Shown: in pieces, positions 9,501-15,081 of the stretch
Layout of the letters: the number at the start of each line of letters is the position of its first letter
Position numbering within the stretch: the stretch's first letter is position 1
From: a virus
Length of the DNA: 31,708 nucleotides
Direction: 5' to 3' (one strand)
Virus record (IMG/VR): IMGVR_UViG_3300032246_000353
Span: 1 to 31,708 of that record
Notes under the pieces: generated by a model
Databases searched by the model: none
What the model was told of the DNA's origin: nothing
What the model saw: the letters and a program-made list of their open reading frames with translations, nothing else
Translations under genes and position numbers: made by a program

Positions 9501-11247
9501 GATTTTGAACTTTACCAAAAGCAGTTAAAATAGAATCGGTAGCAGTAACAGTCCCTCCTGTAATATTAACGCCAGTTAAAACTTTTGCAGTAACTGCTGA
9601 GTTAACTAAAGAAGGATTAGTATAAGTTCCACTTAATTCGCCACCTGCTGCTATACCTGAAATAGTTGTTAGATATGTAGAGTTATCATAAGATACAGTT
9701 GTTCCTGAAACTTTAACAAACCCAGTTCCGTTTAATTGGTTTTGTTTTCCGTTAAATGTTGACCAATCAGCAGAAGTTAATAAACCAGTTACAGAACTAG
9801 AAGAAGTTGGTATTGCAGTTTGACTAGCAGCAGTTACTAGACCTTTGCCGTTAACAGTTATTGTAGGAACTGAAGTAGAAGTTCCATAAGCACCAACATT
9901 TGTATTTACAGTTGCTAAAATTAAAGTAGAACCTGAACCAACTACCGCACCAGTACCACCTGTTACAGTTATATCTGAACTTGTAAGATTACCTAATGTT
10001 AAAGCACTTTGCTTAGAATTAAATGTATTCCAATCAAATGAACCCAAATATCCATCGGTAGATGTATTTGCTTGTGAGATGCTAAATACACCAGTAGTAT
10101 TAGAATAACTTAATGGAGCAGTTGCACTTAAACTTGTTAGAGTAATATATGCAGCACCATTAGTTATTTGATTATTATTAGTAGGAATAGTAATTACTCC
10201 TGTTGTTGAATTGTAAGCACCTGAACCAGCAACAAATGAGTTAGAAGCTCTAGCTCTAACATCTGTATAATAAAGGTTAGTTCCTTCAGTTACTAAAGTT
10301 GTTGTATAATCACCTGATTGAGCAACCACTGCTCCAGTTCTACCAAATACGGAAGTAACCGCATCTGTGTTTATATCAGTCCAAGAAGCCGTTATTGTAC
10401 CACCACCTTGCTCATTTAATGTCAAAGTTTTAGTAGTAGTTCCAGTTACCGCAGCAGATGTTAAACTTCTATTATAAGCAGTGTCCCAAGTTGTTTGACT
10501 TGCAGTTGTAGGTATTCCGTACCCACTTGTAGTACTAAAAACACCAGTAGTATTTGTATAAGTTAATCCCGTCGCAGTAGAGCTTAAGGCAGTCAAAGGA
10601 ATAAAAGATGAAGGATTAGAAGCTAAATAATATGATGAATTATCATAACTTATTGTAGTTCCGCTAATCTTAACAAAACCAGTTCCGTTTAAAGCCGTTT
10701 GTTTATTATTGAAAGTAGTAAAATCAGTTGCAGCCAAATATCCATCTACCAAAGTAGTTGATTTAGCTATTGCAAAAGTTCTATTTGCTGATAAATCTCC
10801 ACCACCAGTCAAAGGAGCAGTAGTAGAAATAGTAGTTGCTTTTAAAGCCTTTGCATCTAAAGTAGATTCTAGTGGAATAACATAACCAGTATCTAAACCA
10901 AAAGCCAAAGTCCCTGCGGTAGTAATTGGATTGCCAGAAATAGTCATTCCAGTAGGAACTGAAGCATTTACGCTGGTTACAGTACCCACAAAACTTTCGG
11001 TATTATTAATCCAAGAACTTCCATTATAAACTAATGCTTGACCAGTTAATGGATTTGTAATTGTTACATCACCTAATTGAGTTAATGTATAATCGCCATC
11101 TTGTGCTATTACATTACCTGTTCTTCCAAACACAGAATAAACACCACTAGGCAAAGGATATGCACCACTAGGAGCTTCAATTATAATCGGCTCTTCGGTT
11201 ACATTAATCTCTATAATATCGTTGTTTACTATTATTTCTGTACTCAT
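6517..11247 (-). CDS. Long tail fibre with C-terminal S74 chaperone
   Basis: A 1576-residue Thr/Ser/Asn-rich fibre built of short repeated modules: SVFGRTGxV (38, 299), EGTNLYYTDxRAR (321 and two later copies), YNSTTGVITIPTNNxQITNG, and TFNxKQ units. Near the C-terminus come two LGIGTSSP-type segments. The last 108 residues are an S74 (endosialidase-type) intramolecular chaperone, SIRASKKNI at 1469, with Ser1469 and Lys1474 spaced as in the Ser/Lys dyad used for self-cleavage. It ends in a coiled coil (IQELSKQNQDLKERL). The chaperone drives trimerisation and is then usually cut off. The start overlaps the adaptor gene's stop (TAATG). This is the main candidate for host receptor binding. Confidence 0.85.
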   Translation of the reverse strand: MSTEIIVNNDIIEINVTEEPIIIEAPSGAYPLPSGVYSVFGRTGNVIAQDGDYTLTQLGDVTITNPLTGQALVYNGSSWINNTESFVGTVTSVNASVPTGMTISGNPITTAGTLAFGLDTGYVIPLESTLDAKALKATTISTTAPLTGGGDLSANRTFAIAKSTTLVDGYLAATDFTTFNNKQTALNGTGFVKISGTTISYDNSSYYLASNPSSFIPLTALSSTATGLTYTNTTGVFSTTSGYGIPTTASQTTWDTAYNRSLTSAAVTGTTTKTLTLNEQGGGTITASWTDINTDAVTSVFGRTGAVVAQSGDYTTTLVTEGTNLYYTDVRARASNSFVAGSGAYNSTTGVITIPTNNNQITNGAAYITLTSLSATAPLSYSNTTGVFSISQANTSTDGYLGSFDWNTFNSKQSALTLGNLTSSDITVTGGTGAVVGSGSTLILATVNTNVGAYGTSTSVPTITVNGKGLVTAASQTAIPTSSSSVTGLLTSADWSTFNGKQNQLNGTGFVKVSGTTVSYDNSTYLTTISGIAAGGELSGTYTNPSLVNSAVTAKVLTGVNITGGTVTATDSILTAFGKVQNQINGLIGGSIYKGTWNASTNTPALASGVGTAGWYYIVSVAGTTNLDGITDWFVGDWAIFDGTAWQQVDNTDAVVSVNGFTGAVSLTTSNITEGTNLYYTDARARLSNSAGTGISYNSTSGVITNSAPDQTVSLTGAGTTSISGTYPSFTITSNDTYNGTVTSIGITESVAALSITGSPVTTSGNINIGFAGTSSQYVGGDGSLITFPSIITQASNLVTEVYNETGATLTKGTIVYINGGHGNLPTVAKALATSDSTSAQTYGFINADLTNNNNGFVTVIGNLENMDTQAYANGTQLYLSGTTAGTYTSTKPQAPIHLVYVAVVVRSHPTQGVLEVRIQNGYELDELHDVQITSVANNNILQYNAASSLWKNVAGTTTNIAEGTNLYYTDVRARASLSFVAGSGAYNSTTGVITIPTNNTQITNGSNYITLTSLSSSATGLTYTNTTGVFSLTSGYVIPTTTSATNWDTAYTNRITSLTTTGSSGSATLVSNVLNVPTYTLTGLGGQPLATNLTSLSGLTYASSSFVKMTAAGTFSLDTSVYYLASNPSGFTSNVGTVTSVAALTLGTTGTDVSSSVATGTTTPVITLNIPTASATNRGALSSTDWSTFNGKQNALTNPVTGTGTSGQVTYFNGTSTVTGSSNHFWDATNNRLGIGTSSPSKLLHLYNTAGTDVMLVESTQVFSTIAFKSSTNSSTVTIGIDGAGNAAFENKLTTGAMAFVTNGSERMRITSAGLVGIGTSSPANYFTTTLTIDGSSSQGIMFRASGTDKGYVYQDGSFIQVGSNTGGVIFKSADTERMRITSGGAINIKDGTLTGGGGFEFTSEAFFGARFQSNAYKFMAGNNSTEYMRITSGGLIVFNSAVYNNSTGGSARTLYIANDYYIGGISSIRASKKNIINVSKVDWLYQLNPVTFNYRKKDEEGNYTEETFEDLNYGLIAEDTQPIADFLINYDDTEDGKKMIGIEYSRLITPMLKAIQELSKQNQDLKERLDKAGL

Positions 11248-11635: not shown

Positions 11636-12511
11636 CTAATTATTAAACAATTCTTTGTATTGATTAGATTCTCCCCAATAAGGATGTATAGTATAAGTAT
11701 TTTCCTTAGAATAGATAGAATTGTGAGATGTAAAGTGAACTCCGTGATTTATATGGATTGCCTCGTTTAAACTATCCCATTGTATTCTATTTAAACTTTG
11801 GGTTTCTATGCAACCACTATTAGTCCTTAAAGCATTAGGTAGAATCTTTAAACAATGCTCAATTGCATCATCAAACTTCATTGTCATTTGATGAAATGGC
11901 TCATCATCTTGATTCCTTTTTTGCCACCCTTCTTTATTCAATCCACCATAATTCATATTGGTTAAAACCTGCCCATTCTCAAAATCAGGAAAATCAAAAT
12001 ATCCCTTTGGATATAATACATCGTGCTCTAAAAAAGATACATAATCATAAACTCCCATTTCTTTAGCCGTGTACAAGCATTGCATTATTTGCAATAGTTG
12101 GTTTAAATGGCTTTGCGACCTATACCAACTAGAAACCGAATTAAAGGGGTTTTTAGGCATATCTTCCCAAAGGCAAGTAATTATATCAGCTTTACCCTCA
12201 GATGCGATTTTTACGCTATATAAAGAGCAATAAATGGCATTCCAAATGTCTTTATTGTTATTGTTAGAGTAAAATATACCTAATTTGTTAAACCCTGTTC
12301 TTGGTAGGTTAATTAATTCGCCTTCTCTAAATGCCCTAATAGTTACTTTGCCTTCGTGCTCATAACTCATTTCTAGGAACTTAACCTGCCCAACTTTAGG
12401 GTCGCCAATTATCTCATTAGTTACCCTCATCATTAATCTATCATTCTTTACTTTAGTACTTATAATTTCTGTACAATCTTTCCCTCCATAATTAGCAGAT
12501 ATTATTCTCAT
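11636..12511 (-). CDS. Putative glycosyltransferase, EHD motif
   Basis: A 291-residue protein with signs of a GT-A-like fold: a nucleotide-sugar-binding-like middle region and YVSFLEHDVLYPKGYF (157-172), where EHD (162-164) sits at the end of a hydrophobic strand in the position of the usual DxD. Conserved-looking polar elements follow (NYGGLNKEGW, TNSGCIETQ, HINHGVHF). I start it at the ATG at 12511, which forms an ATGA overlap with the upstream glycosyltransferase; the frame is open 13 codons further but that part overlaps. With its neighbour it probably transfers sugar to a phage or host acceptor. The acceptor is unknown; the Thr-rich tail protein just upstream is the obvious candidate. 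Confidence 0.55.
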   Translation of the reverse strand: MRIISANYGGKDCTEIISTKVKNDRLMMRVTNEIIGDPKVGQVKFLEMSYEHEGKVTIRAFREGELINLPRTGFNKLGIFYSNNNNKDIWNAIYCSLYSVKIASEGKADIITCLWEDMPKNPFNSVSSWYRSQSHLNQLLQIMQCLYTAKEMGVYDYVSFLEHDVLYPKGYFDFPDFENGQVLTNMNYGGLNKEGWQKRNQDDEPFHQMTMKFDDAIEHCLKILPNALRTNSGCIETQSLNRIQWDSLNEAIHINHGVHFTSHNSIYSKENTYTIHPYWGESNQYKELFNN

Positions 12512-13434
12512 AGAACTGTTGTTTTTGCTGTTTTTTCTATTAGTTCCCAATATTTATATGAACATCTTTTATAATCTAATTCTAGTTTCTCCCCATAAGG
12601 AAGTTTATTTACATAAATAGCTTTATAAAACATCCCTTCATTTTCTGAAGTTACCCCTGCATTATGATAGATATTACATTTATCCCAATCTTCAGGACTA
12701 CTTGTTGCCCAAGCAAAATCAAAGTCTTTGTGCATAATGCTTTCATATCCTAATTTCCAACCATTCCAAAGTACTGCCCACATATCAGCACACCATATTT
12801 GTAACTCGTGATAGTTAGGATTAGATTCTTTCTTTTTTACATTAAGTTCTGTTATTTGCTTAAATAATGCTTCACTATCTTTTTCTACATTATCCCAAAA
12901 CTTCCAATCTATTCCTTTCATTAAATATTGAGCACCTATTGAATTTAATTCGTTGTCTTTTATTAATTGTTTGTCTATGCCCACTATTTCACACATTAAA
13001 TCTAAGACATCTTCTCCTTTGCTCATTATATAATTATACCCTATGTAAAATCTAGTATCTGAACCATACCATTTATTATTGTAAAGAAACTCACCGAATA
13101 TCATTTGCTTTGTAAATACAATATCACAATCGTGATAAAAGATTGCCTTTTTAGATAACTCTGAATATTTGTAGAAATGTTGTTTAAGTATGTTTGGTCT
13201 TATTGATGAAATATAAAATGAATTTTCTCTAGTATCATCATAGAAAAAGAATCTTGCTGCATACCCATTGGCAAGTTTACTCCATTCATCTGTTATTATG
13301 CCATTTTCTTTCCAGCATACTATATCAACATTATTTAGATTAATGCCGACATAAATAAAGTTATTTAACATTACCTCAACTTGCCACGCATAGTATAACG
13401 TTGCTGGTTGAGCACATACATATTGTAGTTCCAT
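12508..13434 (-). CDS. Putative peptidyl glycosyltransferase (HPAT/SerGT-like)
   Basis: A 308-residue protein with FYHDCDIVF (99-107): D102-x-D104 is a DxD motif after a hydrophobic strand, as in GT-A glycosyltransferases. The order of elements matches what I know of hydroxyproline O-arabinosyltransferases and peptidyl serine galactosyltransferases: an early WQ (YYAWQVEVML), an IRPNILKQHF helix before the DxD, GAQYLMKGIDW in the middle, ADMWAVLWNGWKLGYE and IYHNAGV near the end. These enzymes act on Ser/Pro/Thr-rich proteins, and the gene directly upstream codes a Thr-rich tail protein. There is no signal peptide or membrane span, so it acts in the cytoplasm. The family link is by eye and needs a profile search. 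Confidence 0.6.
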   Translation of the reverse strand: MELQYVCAQPATLYYAWQVEVMLNNFIYVGINLNNVDIVCWKENGIITDEWSKLANGYAARFFFYDDTRENSFYISSIRPNILKQHFYKYSELSKKAIFYHDCDIVFTKQMIFGEFLYNNKWYGSDTRFYIGYNYIMSKGEDVLDLMCEIVGIDKQLIKDNELNSIGAQYLMKGIDWKFWDNVEKDSEALFKQITELNVKKKESNPNYHELQIWCADMWAVLWNGWKLGYESIMHKDFDFAWATSSPEDWDKCNIYHNAGVTSENEGMFYKAIYVNKLPYGEKLELDYKRCSYKYWELIEKTAKTTVL

Positions 13435-13443
13435 AGGTTGTTT

Positions 13444-15081
13444 TTAACAAAGACCATTTATTGCTGCTAAACCACTTGTTATTGTCCAATTGAACCCTTG
13501 AAAATCTGCCCAATAAGCACCAGTTACATATCCACCACCAGTATTTAACAAAGTTCCATTAACATTATAATAAGTATGTCCTGCCACGAATCCACTATAA
13601 TCTCCACTTGAACCTCCTGCAACACTTCCATAAACATTAGCATAAGAACCATTAACTGTATTACAAGCATCTGAAGATGTGCCTGAAGCATAAGCAGTAA
13701 ACAAAAGATTATAAGGTGATGCCGTTGTTGTAGTCGTTGTACTTGTTGTAGTTGATGTCGTAGTTGTCGTTGTCGTTGTAGTCGCTGGACATCCTGTTCC
13801 TGCGGTAGCAGTTACTGATAATAAAGTTCCACTTGGAGTTGAATAACTAATTGCATCTATTACCGAAACAATACTTCCAATATCAGTAATAACCCTATCA
13901 TTAATATTAAATGTTCCTAAAACATAAGGGATAGTCCAAGTTAAAGAAGTCCCTGTTTGACAATTATAAAGTCTATAATATACCAATGGTAAGGTTGTAG
14001 TAGTAGTCGTAGTAGGAGCAGCAGTAGTCGTAGTTGTTGTTGTAACAGGACAACCAGTCGCAGCCGTTGGAGTAACATCATAAAATGGTCCAGCAGGTGG
14101 AGAATATTCAATTTGGTCAATAACACAAGTTCTACTACCAATAACTGTAATAACTCTATCATTTAGATTAAATGTTCCTAATACATATTGAGTAGTATAA
14201 GTAAGTGATGTTCCAGTAGAACAATCAAATAATCTATAAAAAACTAAAGGCAAAGTAGTTGTAGTTGTAGTAGAAGTACTTGTAGTTGTTGTTGTAGCAG
14301 GACATCCAACTTGAGCAGTTGCCGTAACCGAATATAAAGTCCCAATTGGAGTTGAATAAGTTATTGCATCAATTACACAAGTAGCACTATCAGAATCTCT
14401 AATAACTCTATCATTTATATTAAAAGTACCTAAAACATAAGGTATTGTATATGTTGTTGATGTTTGAGTAGCACAATTTAACAATCTATAATAAACCAAA
14501 GGTAAAGTTGTTGTCGTTGTAGTTGTAGAAGTTGTCGTAGTTGTTGTAGGAGCAGCAGTAGTTGTTGTAGTTGTAGTACTTGTTGTAGTTGTAGAAGTTG
14601 TTGTAGTAGTTGAAGTGCTTGTTGAAGTAGATGTGGTAGAAGTTGTTGTTGTAGGAGTTTTTTCAGTATAATACTTACCTGTCCCAACTAAATTAACATT
14701 GTAAGTCCCTATCTCTTTGTAATTACCATTTATTGAAATATTACCTATAAAACAATACCCACTAATATATCTTTTACCATCTATGCCATTATCAATCTCA
14801 AATCTAACCAAAAGATAAAGTCTATCCTTTTGATATTGTAACATTTCATCATACGAGAAATTATCTAAGGTAATTATACCATTACAAGACATTGTCCATT
14901 TAGAAAGGTCAACTTTCGGTTCTTTAAAGTAAGCATTTGAAGCACTTGAAATTTCAGTTAATTCAGTTTCAGAGTAAAAACTACAAGATGTAGAACAAGC
15001 GAAAGGGGATTCCGTTGCAGGAAAAGTAGATGTATCTACCTTGTATAAAATAACATTATTCCCATTTACTTTAACCGCCAT
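13444..15081 (-). CDS. Tail protein with tube-like domain and mucin-like Thr linkers
   Basis: A 545-residue modular protein. Residues 1-140 are a paralogue of the next upstream gene and of the tail-tube fold (shared VxGxNxILYKV, PFACSTxCxF, YKEIxTYxxxLxGxGxY). Then come four linkers made almost only of Thr and Ser with AAP (143-192, 262-276, 347-363, 433-454). They separate three copies of a 70-residue domain (193-261, 277-346, 364-432; each LPLVxYRLxxC...FNxNDRVI...GCP). The C-terminal 90 residues form a different domain (YNLLFTAYASG, aromatic and Gly-rich). It is probably displayed on the tail and may bind host glycans. The linkers resemble mucin and could be glycosylated by the two downstream enzymes. 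The three repeat domains are of unknown family. Confidence 0.7.
   Translation of the reverse strand: MAVKVNGNNVILYKVDTSTFPATESPFACSTSCSFYSETELTEISSASNAYFKEPKVDLSKWTMSCNGIITLDNFSYDEMLQYQKDRLYLLVRFEIDNGIDGKRYISGYCFIGNISINGNYKEIGTYNVNLVGTGKYYTEKTPTTTTSTTSTSTSTSTTTTTSTTTTSTTTTTTTAAPTTTTTTSTTTTTTTLPLVYYRLLNCATQTSTTYTIPYVLGTFNINDRVIRDSDSATCVIDAITYSTPIGTLYSVTATAQVGCPATTTTTSTSTTTTTTLPLVFYRLFDCSTGTSLTYTTQYVLGTFNLNDRVITVIGSRTCVIDQIEYSPPAGPFYDVTPTAATGCPVTTTTTTTAAPTTTTTTTLPLVYYRLYNCQTGTSLTWTIPYVLGTFNINDRVITDIGSIVSVIDAISYSTPSGTLLSVTATAGTGCPATTTTTTTTTSTTTSTTTTTTASPYNLLFTAYASGTSSDACNTVNGSYANVYGSVAGGSSGDYSGFVAGHTYYNVNGTLLNTGGGYVTGAYWADFQGFNWTITSGLAAINGLC
13720..13785. repeat. Triplet-repeat tract coding Thr linker 4
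   Basis: Degenerate (ACN/TCN)n on the minus strand coding residues 433-454 of the tail protein. Mixed ACA, ACG, ACC and ACT codons. A change in copy number keeps the reading frame. Confidence 0.7.
14506..14655. repeat. Triplet-repeat tract coding 50-residue Thr/Ser linker
   Basis: A 150-base run of almost pure ACN and TCN codons (residues 143-192). It is the longest low-complexity tract in the window. Such tracts are prone to slippage and recombination with the other three linker tracts in the same gene, changing linker length or number of domains without a frameshift. Confidence 0.75.

Follow-up and report, generated by a model that had tools for sequence, protein, structure and literature searches.

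Mycobacteriophages Che8, Corndog and Myrna are reported to use glycosyltransferases of their own to modify capsid and tail tube proteins at the C-termini (Freeman et al. 2023, Cell Host Microbe, as cited in PMC12619734 and PMC12363180). In a literature search that most subscription papers lay outside, we found no paper on threonine-rich structural proteins of phages combined with glycosyltransferases. Here, we analysed a viral record of 31,708 bases from IMG/VR (IMGVR_UViG_3300032246_000353), in the following called the window, that encodes a Thr-rich protein of 545 amino acids (aa) and directly behind it two glycosyltransferase-like proteins, P0002 and P0001. P0002 is a member of phrog_4417, a phage family annotated as unknown function. 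We propose, with a probability of about 0.85, that the phrog_4417 enzymes O-glycosylate virion proteins at poly-Thr tags and that P0001 probably adds a second sugar, where we infer the acceptor, the donor and the order of the enzymes. The observations behind this proposal are the Thr/Ser linkers, two GT-A glycosyltransferase folds with conserved catalytic-type motifs, the gene order and a one-to-one co-occurrence of tag and enzyme.

The co-occurrence was analysed in viral contigs that were searched with a profile of a Firmicutes tail-tube protein. The poly-Thr tail had been removed from the profile, so that the sampling depended on neither the tail nor the enzyme. We kept the 74 loci whose downstream sequence was long enough, and at least 5 Thr were counted as a tail. 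The tail and the P0002-family enzyme were both present in 17 loci and both absent in 57, and no locus had one of them alone (Fisher 4e-17; 6e-14 after dereplication at 85%). Capsid proteins were tailed in 15 of the 16 cases with the enzyme versus 0 of 41 without it, and the single untailed capsid among the enzyme loci looks like a truncated gene call. All 17 enzyme loci had two or three genes with at least 6 consecutive Thr, and any such gene was found in 1 of the 57 others. When the sample was anchored on the capsid, the usable loci were all enzyme-free. Within a phage, the major capsid and the tail-tube protein end with an identical stretch of 2-4 residues, for example PAGA or TPTV, far more often than by chance (L407-L486), in phages with and without the glycosyltransferase. 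These residues were rejected as evidence for a recognition tag because the enzyme-free phages show the same.

On a tree of the tail-tube cores, nine changes are needed for each of the two traits, tail and enzyme, and these changes are matched. The independent pairs on supported branches agreed in 6 of 6 cases (sign test p 0.03, the minimum possible with six pairs). The first-pass annotation had inferred the Thr-rich protein to be the acceptor. This assignment is supported and survives the controls, and the enzyme is not equally common in phages without Thr-rich proteins. What the co-occurrence reports is functional coupling, not the reaction itself.

Such a pattern might also arise if the Thr linkers and the glycosyltransferase were one recombination cassette with no functional coupling, since adjacent genes recombine together; the window pair lies side by side and may have arisen once in one lineage. 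In Firmicutes phages, however, the tailed capsid gene is five to seven genes away from the enzyme, separated by mostly untailed genes, and nevertheless tracks it. Co-transfer of one small cassette therefore does not explain the pattern. The tags are also found on non-homologous proteins (tail tube, capsid, decoration, baseplate-like), and we regard a mere cassette as very improbable. Many phage-encoded glycosyltransferases alter host surface glycans (gtr systems), and the P0002 fold resembles the lipopolysaccharide and lipooligosaccharide enzymes WbbM and LgtC. The enzymes could accordingly modify a host surface glycan for serotype conversion or superinfection exclusion, with the Thr linkers as flexible spacers that are nearby by chance. 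This is improbable given the perfect coupling to poly-Thr on homologous tail-tube proteins with its nine matched changes, the tails that two or three mutually separated structural genes carry where the enzyme is present, and the location of the enzyme gene within the late structural operon. DNA is another frequent target of phage glycosyltransferases, according to work cited in PMC12619734, and the enzymes might act in base hypermodification of the phage DNA. The enzyme tracks a protein trait, however, not a nucleotide-biosynthesis trait (no search aimed at other base-modification genes was made), and it sits in a structural operon, which makes this explanation hardly credible.

The neighbourhoods of P0002-family genes and of poly-Thr genes were then surveyed, where the counts are among the matches listed by pattern-based scans and many contigs are fragments. 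When representatives at 90% identity were taken and the loci sampled by poly-Thr were excluded, a Thr-rich gene was located directly upstream of the P0002-family gene in 90 of 138 cases, compared with 12 of 911 genes located downstream. Where large contigs had no Thr-rich gene next to the enzyme, 9 of 11 encoded Thr runs elsewhere; the distant Thr runs that we inspected lay within open reading frames (ORFs), and several were C-terminal tails of short proteins. Among 120 loci sampled solely by a poly-Thr DNA pattern, about a dozen had a P0002-family gene, nearly always directly behind the Thr-rich gene. We rejected the idea that a glycosyltransferase goes with every poly-Thr gene, because few downstream genes encode other glycosyltransferases. 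At loci L101-L171, which have poly-Thr but no P0002, Gly_transf_sug/Caps_synth, GT2-type or glycosyltransferase group 1 genes lie behind a few of the poly-Thr genes, and other enzyme families may fill the role of P0002 there.

In the lineage of the window, the tail-tube relatives carry the Thr-rich paralogue together with both enzymes, or none of them, barring contigs that end before the enzyme genes. The enzyme was absent in 9 of 9 loci of the relatives without Thr linkers. A search for P0002 in the whole records of these linker-free relatives was also empty, which is weak support as the same search had no positive control. Their loci (L233-L241) have a single longer tail-tube gene (227-384 aa) that is directly followed by a large gene of about 1000-1200 aa where complete, and this layout replaces the arrangement of two genes and two enzymes in the window.

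Cultured phages with the enzyme carried poly-Thr tails or linkers on structural proteins in 7 of the 7 isolates inspected, which were the Enterococcus phages phiFL2B and VPE25, Staphylococcus phage SA2, Lactococcus phage 1706, the Lactobacillus phages iLp84 and Iacchus, and Chryseobacterium phage MA9V-3. These Thr stretches were on the capsid, decoration or tail-tube protein or on another protein of the late region. In prophages of Firmicutes, the tails occur jointly on capsid, connector and tail-tube proteins. The tail-tube gene of SA2 (L095:5117-5930) ends with ACT CCC TAA G, where a +1 shift would append an overlapping Thr/Ser-rich extension that is annotated as a separate gene. This suggests that programmed frameshifting gives some of the tail-tube subunits a longer tag.

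P0002 matched phrog_4417 over its full length (1.4e-63, aa 4-302 on 2-291 of 293). It was modelled by AlphaFold2 with a predicted local distance difference test (pLDDT) of 96.9 and a predicted template modelling score of 0.93. Foldseek against the PDB gave E values down to 1.6e-7 at a probability of 1.00, and the matches listed were all GT-A glycosyltransferases, including WbbM, the UGGT catalytic domain, XXYLT1, LgtC, glycogenin, LARGE1 and the blood-group enzymes GTA/GTB. Neither Pfam nor NCBIfam had a match to P0002 above the cut-off, including any glycosyltransferase model. The Pfam profile of GT8 (Glyco_transf_8) matched neither P0002 nor its relatives; the likeness to GT8 is at the fold level. 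The PDB sequence search returned no convincing relative, with a single match at E 0.43. Across phages from Bacteroidota to Firmicutes, the residues D102, D104, H257, G260 and K271 do not vary. In glycogenin and LgtC, the metal is bound by a DxD together with a later His, and by analogy with these GT8 enzymes H257 of P0002 may be the third metal ligand.

For P0001, Foldseek gave E values down to 3.4e-7 and the matches listed were all glycosyltransferases, among them BoGT6a, SpsA, chondroitin synthase, GalNAc-T2 and the capsid glycosyltransferase of PBCV-1. No family model of Pfam or NCBIfam matched above the cut-off, no match was found in annotated phages, and the PDB sequence search gave no more than a brief partial match to rhamnose-binding lectins (5h4s, 2zx0). 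In a profile alignment, the P0001 and P0002 families could not be aligned with each other. The segment HxNHGxHFTSH is nearly throughout invariant in 24 homologues, and the EHD motif is taken as a DxD-like variant. The DxD in P0002 and the EHD in P0001 had been pointed out in the first-pass annotation, and both motifs hold up; the structure predictions place both proteins in the GT-A fold (matches listed at probability 0.98-1.00).

The annotation had also treated the two enzymes as a unit. P0002 is the constant partner of the Thr tags, whereas P0001 is optional and the pair is a local feature. Of P0001, 68 homologues were found, almost all inside P0002 loci, and most of the poly-Thr-sampled loci that carry P0002 had no P0001. 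P0001 probably adds a second sugar as an extender. Alternatively, only P0002 would act on the Thr tags and P0001 would be a passenger with an unrelated acceptor, in line with the scarcity of P0001 in the poly-Thr sample and with its presence at P0002 also where no Thr-rich gene is adjacent. The ATGA overlap of the two genes and the near confinement of the 68 homologues to P0002 loci argue against a passenger, and the contigs with the pair but without an adjacent Thr gene mostly have Thr-rich genes elsewhere. We consider the passenger unlikely.

The features of the window are compiled in Table 1. Its late region is siphovirus-like and lies on the minus strand in the order tape measure, 732-aa structural protein, tail tube protein, 545-aa protein, P0002 and P0001, after which come a protein of 121 aa and a fibre of 1576 aa that ends with an S74-type chaperone. 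The ORFs and coordinates previously assigned to the three genes were correct, as were the four near-pure Thr/Ser linkers of the 545-aa protein and the position of the two enzyme genes right behind it with their shared ATGA. The 545-aa protein had been described as a tail appendage. We had to revise this, since it is a paralogue of the tail tube (major tail) protein and not fibre-like, as seen by its match to phrog_1407 and its 46% identity to the 135-aa neighbour. The latter represents the parent family of the Thr-rich paralogue.

Table 1. Features of the window with their positions, strand and supporting evidence.
Feature	Position	Strand	Evidence
P0001, second GT-A glycosyltransferase, proposed extender	11636..12511	-	AlphaFold2 pLDDT 89.4; Foldseek
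EHD motif E162-H163-D164 of P0001	12020..12028	-	invariant in 24 homologues
P0002, GT-A glycosyltransferase, proposed poly-Thr O-glycosyltransferase	12508..13434	-	phrog_4417; AlphaFold2; Foldseek
H257 of P0002, start of HNAG...K motif	12664..12666	-	H257 invariant; putative metal role
DxD motif D102-C-D104 of P0002, predicted metal/nucleotide-sugar site	13123..13131	-	invariant in 44 relatives; also wider set of 23 sequences
545-aa Thr-rich tail tube paralogue, proposed glycan acceptor	13444..15081	-	phrog_1407 4.9e-13 over aa 2-183
Thr/Ser linker 4, aa 432-456, 25 residues	13714..13788	-	residue count
Three related ~68-aa domains, LPLV[YF]YRL...GCP	13789..14505	-	repeats start at aa 193, 277, 364
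Thr/Ser linker 3, aa 347-363, 17 residues	13993..14043	-	residue count
Thr/Ser linker 2, aa 261-276, 16 residues	14254..14301	-	residue count
Thr/Ser linker 1, aa 142-192, 51 residues, 47 T/S	14506..14658	-	residue count
N-terminal tail-tube-like domain, aa 1-140	14662..15081	-	46% identity over 137 residues to 135-aa neighbour
Tail tube protein, 135 aa	15094..15501	-	Pfam Phage_tail_2 2.2e-9; phrog_1407 7.7e-20

The longest pure Thr/Ser run of the 545-aa protein has 32 residues, while 1000 shuffled sequences of identical composition reached no more than 11. In other phage loci, a density of at least 14 Thr/Ser per 20-residue window was reached by just 14 of 2209 genes. The Thr codons of the linkers are ACA (39), ACT (33), ACG (9) and ACC (2). 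Since all four codons are mixed, DNA slippage of a single codon was ruled out as the origin of the linkers. The linkers alternate with the ~68-aa domains (aa 193-260, 277-346 and 364-431), which had no match in a Pfam scan. These Cys-containing domains look like domains of the Thr-rich proteins of other phages, e.g. at L214.

Relatives of P0002 are also encoded on Bacteroidota chromosomes, where they are mostly larger. Several of them are near Cys-rich peptides with a double-glycine (GG) leader. In Sphingobacterium and Niabella chromosomes (L263, ~9609-9857; L266, ~9630-9866), a GG-leader peptide is encoded directly upstream of the P0002-like gene and contains TTTTTTSS or TTTTTTT right after the GG site, and it is possible that these are glycosylated ribosomally synthesised and post-translationally modified peptides. 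The GG-leader peptides near other chromosomal relatives have no long Thr runs. The chromosomal loci fit a family of peptide Thr glycosyltransferases, with few cases and most loci without a Thr run. An actinobacterial contig encodes a fusion of the P0002-like domain with a GlcNAc glycosyltransferase domain (PF11397, 1e-51), and one Bacteroidota chromosomal relative has a weak galactosyltransferase-type match at its C-terminus; the fusions are found at L311:536-3640 and L244:10004-11713, with PF11397 and, weakly, a Glyco_transf_7C-like domain. At L100:1-1117 (-), the P0002-like domain is continued at the end of the contig by a segment resembling a methyltransferase (MLDIPCGDFNWM), and the glycan may be methylated.

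Several points weigh against the proposed role of phrog_4417. About nine tenths of the poly-Thr-sampled loci had no P0002-family gene in the stretch examined, many of these stretches being short, and Thr runs alone thus do not imply the enzyme. The Bacteroidota chromosomal relatives mostly have no Thr-run neighbour (7 of the 39 in the set have one). P0001 also adjoins P0002 where no Thr-rich gene is next to them, which makes its acceptor less certain. Phages without the enzyme, too, have capsid and tail-tube proteins with matching last residues, and this feature hence adds no support. Finally, the template modelling (TM) scores of the P0002 model to known enzymes of the GT8/GT24/GT6 type are modest (~0.4-0.5, at 6-14% identity), so the predicted fold does not tell its donor and acceptor.

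For the proposed mechanism, we suggest that P0002 would be a cytosolic, metal-dependent GT-A enzyme that uses a nucleotide sugar to glycosylate Thr, and probably Ser, in the poly-Thr tags of the phage's structural proteins before or during assembly. The tags are borne in the window by the tail-tube paralogue with its four linkers; other phages have them C-terminally on the major capsid and tail tube proteins and on a head-tail connector or decoration protein. P0001, translated from the overlapping start, would be best placed as the extender, and the virion would leave the cell with a glycan coat. Since most relatives carry their tags on subunits of the capsid and tail tube, a coat over the whole particle for shielding, solubility or adhesion appears likelier than a receptor-binding role. 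Binding to mucus or host polysaccharide, or masking, is a speculation on its function. More broadly, phrog_4417 could be the signature enzyme of a widespread poly-Thr glycan-tag code, in which phages of at least two host phyla would place simple poly-Thr tags on any structural protein to be coated, with the same domain in Bacteroidota chromosomes glycosylating Thr runs of double-glycine-leader peptides, such that one family would serve virion coats and ribosomal peptide natural products. We put this forward tentatively, at somewhat less than even odds.

With this proposal, a phage family of unknown function gains a candidate GT-A function and a concrete acceptor, and the family is present in cultured Lactococcus, Lactobacillus, Enterococcus, Staphylococcus and Chryseobacterium phages. 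It suggests that virion glycosylation, known in mycobacteriophages, is commoner and has arisen with unrelated enzymes. The poly-Thr tag would be an easily scanned marker for it, and glycobiologists would be interested in a soluble enzyme able to glycosylate a plain run of Thr.

Eukaryotic mucin-type O-glycosylation likewise combines a Thr/Ser-rich acceptor with a GT-A enzyme, and GalNAc-T2 is among the fold matches of P0001. The phage enzymes, however, have no lectin domain or secretory pathway, and the comparison is an analogy of how the systems would work. The chlorovirus PBCV-1 encodes a glycosyltransferase for its own capsid (PDB 2p6w) that P0001 matches at E 1.3e-3, but this virus is unrelated and the likeness is at the fold level only. 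P0002 shares with the CAZy families GT8/GT24/GT6 (LgtC, glycogenin, XXYLT1, LARGE, UGGT, GTA/GTB) the GT-A fold, the DxD at the end of a core strand and, close to the C-terminus, a conserved His with G and K after it, but differs by the low identity and TM scores given above and by the missing Pfam/NCBIfam glycosyltransferase match. The mycobacteriophages have capsid and tail-tube proteins as acceptors, and these are also the candidates in Firmicutes phages, there with poly-Thr tails, whereas the candidate acceptor of the window is only a tail-tube paralogue. In Che8, the enzymes gp108-110 are encoded at the far end of the genome, and the capsid protein gp6 and the tail protein gp11 have no Thr run. 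With hhalign, the P0002 family reached a probability of at most 0.3% against gp108, gp109 and gp110, and the P0001 family less than 1% against gp110. Since the Che8 enzymes do not align with P0002, nor gp110 with P0001, we conclude that the present system works like that of the mycobacteriophages with a separate group of enzymes, as far as Che8 represents it.

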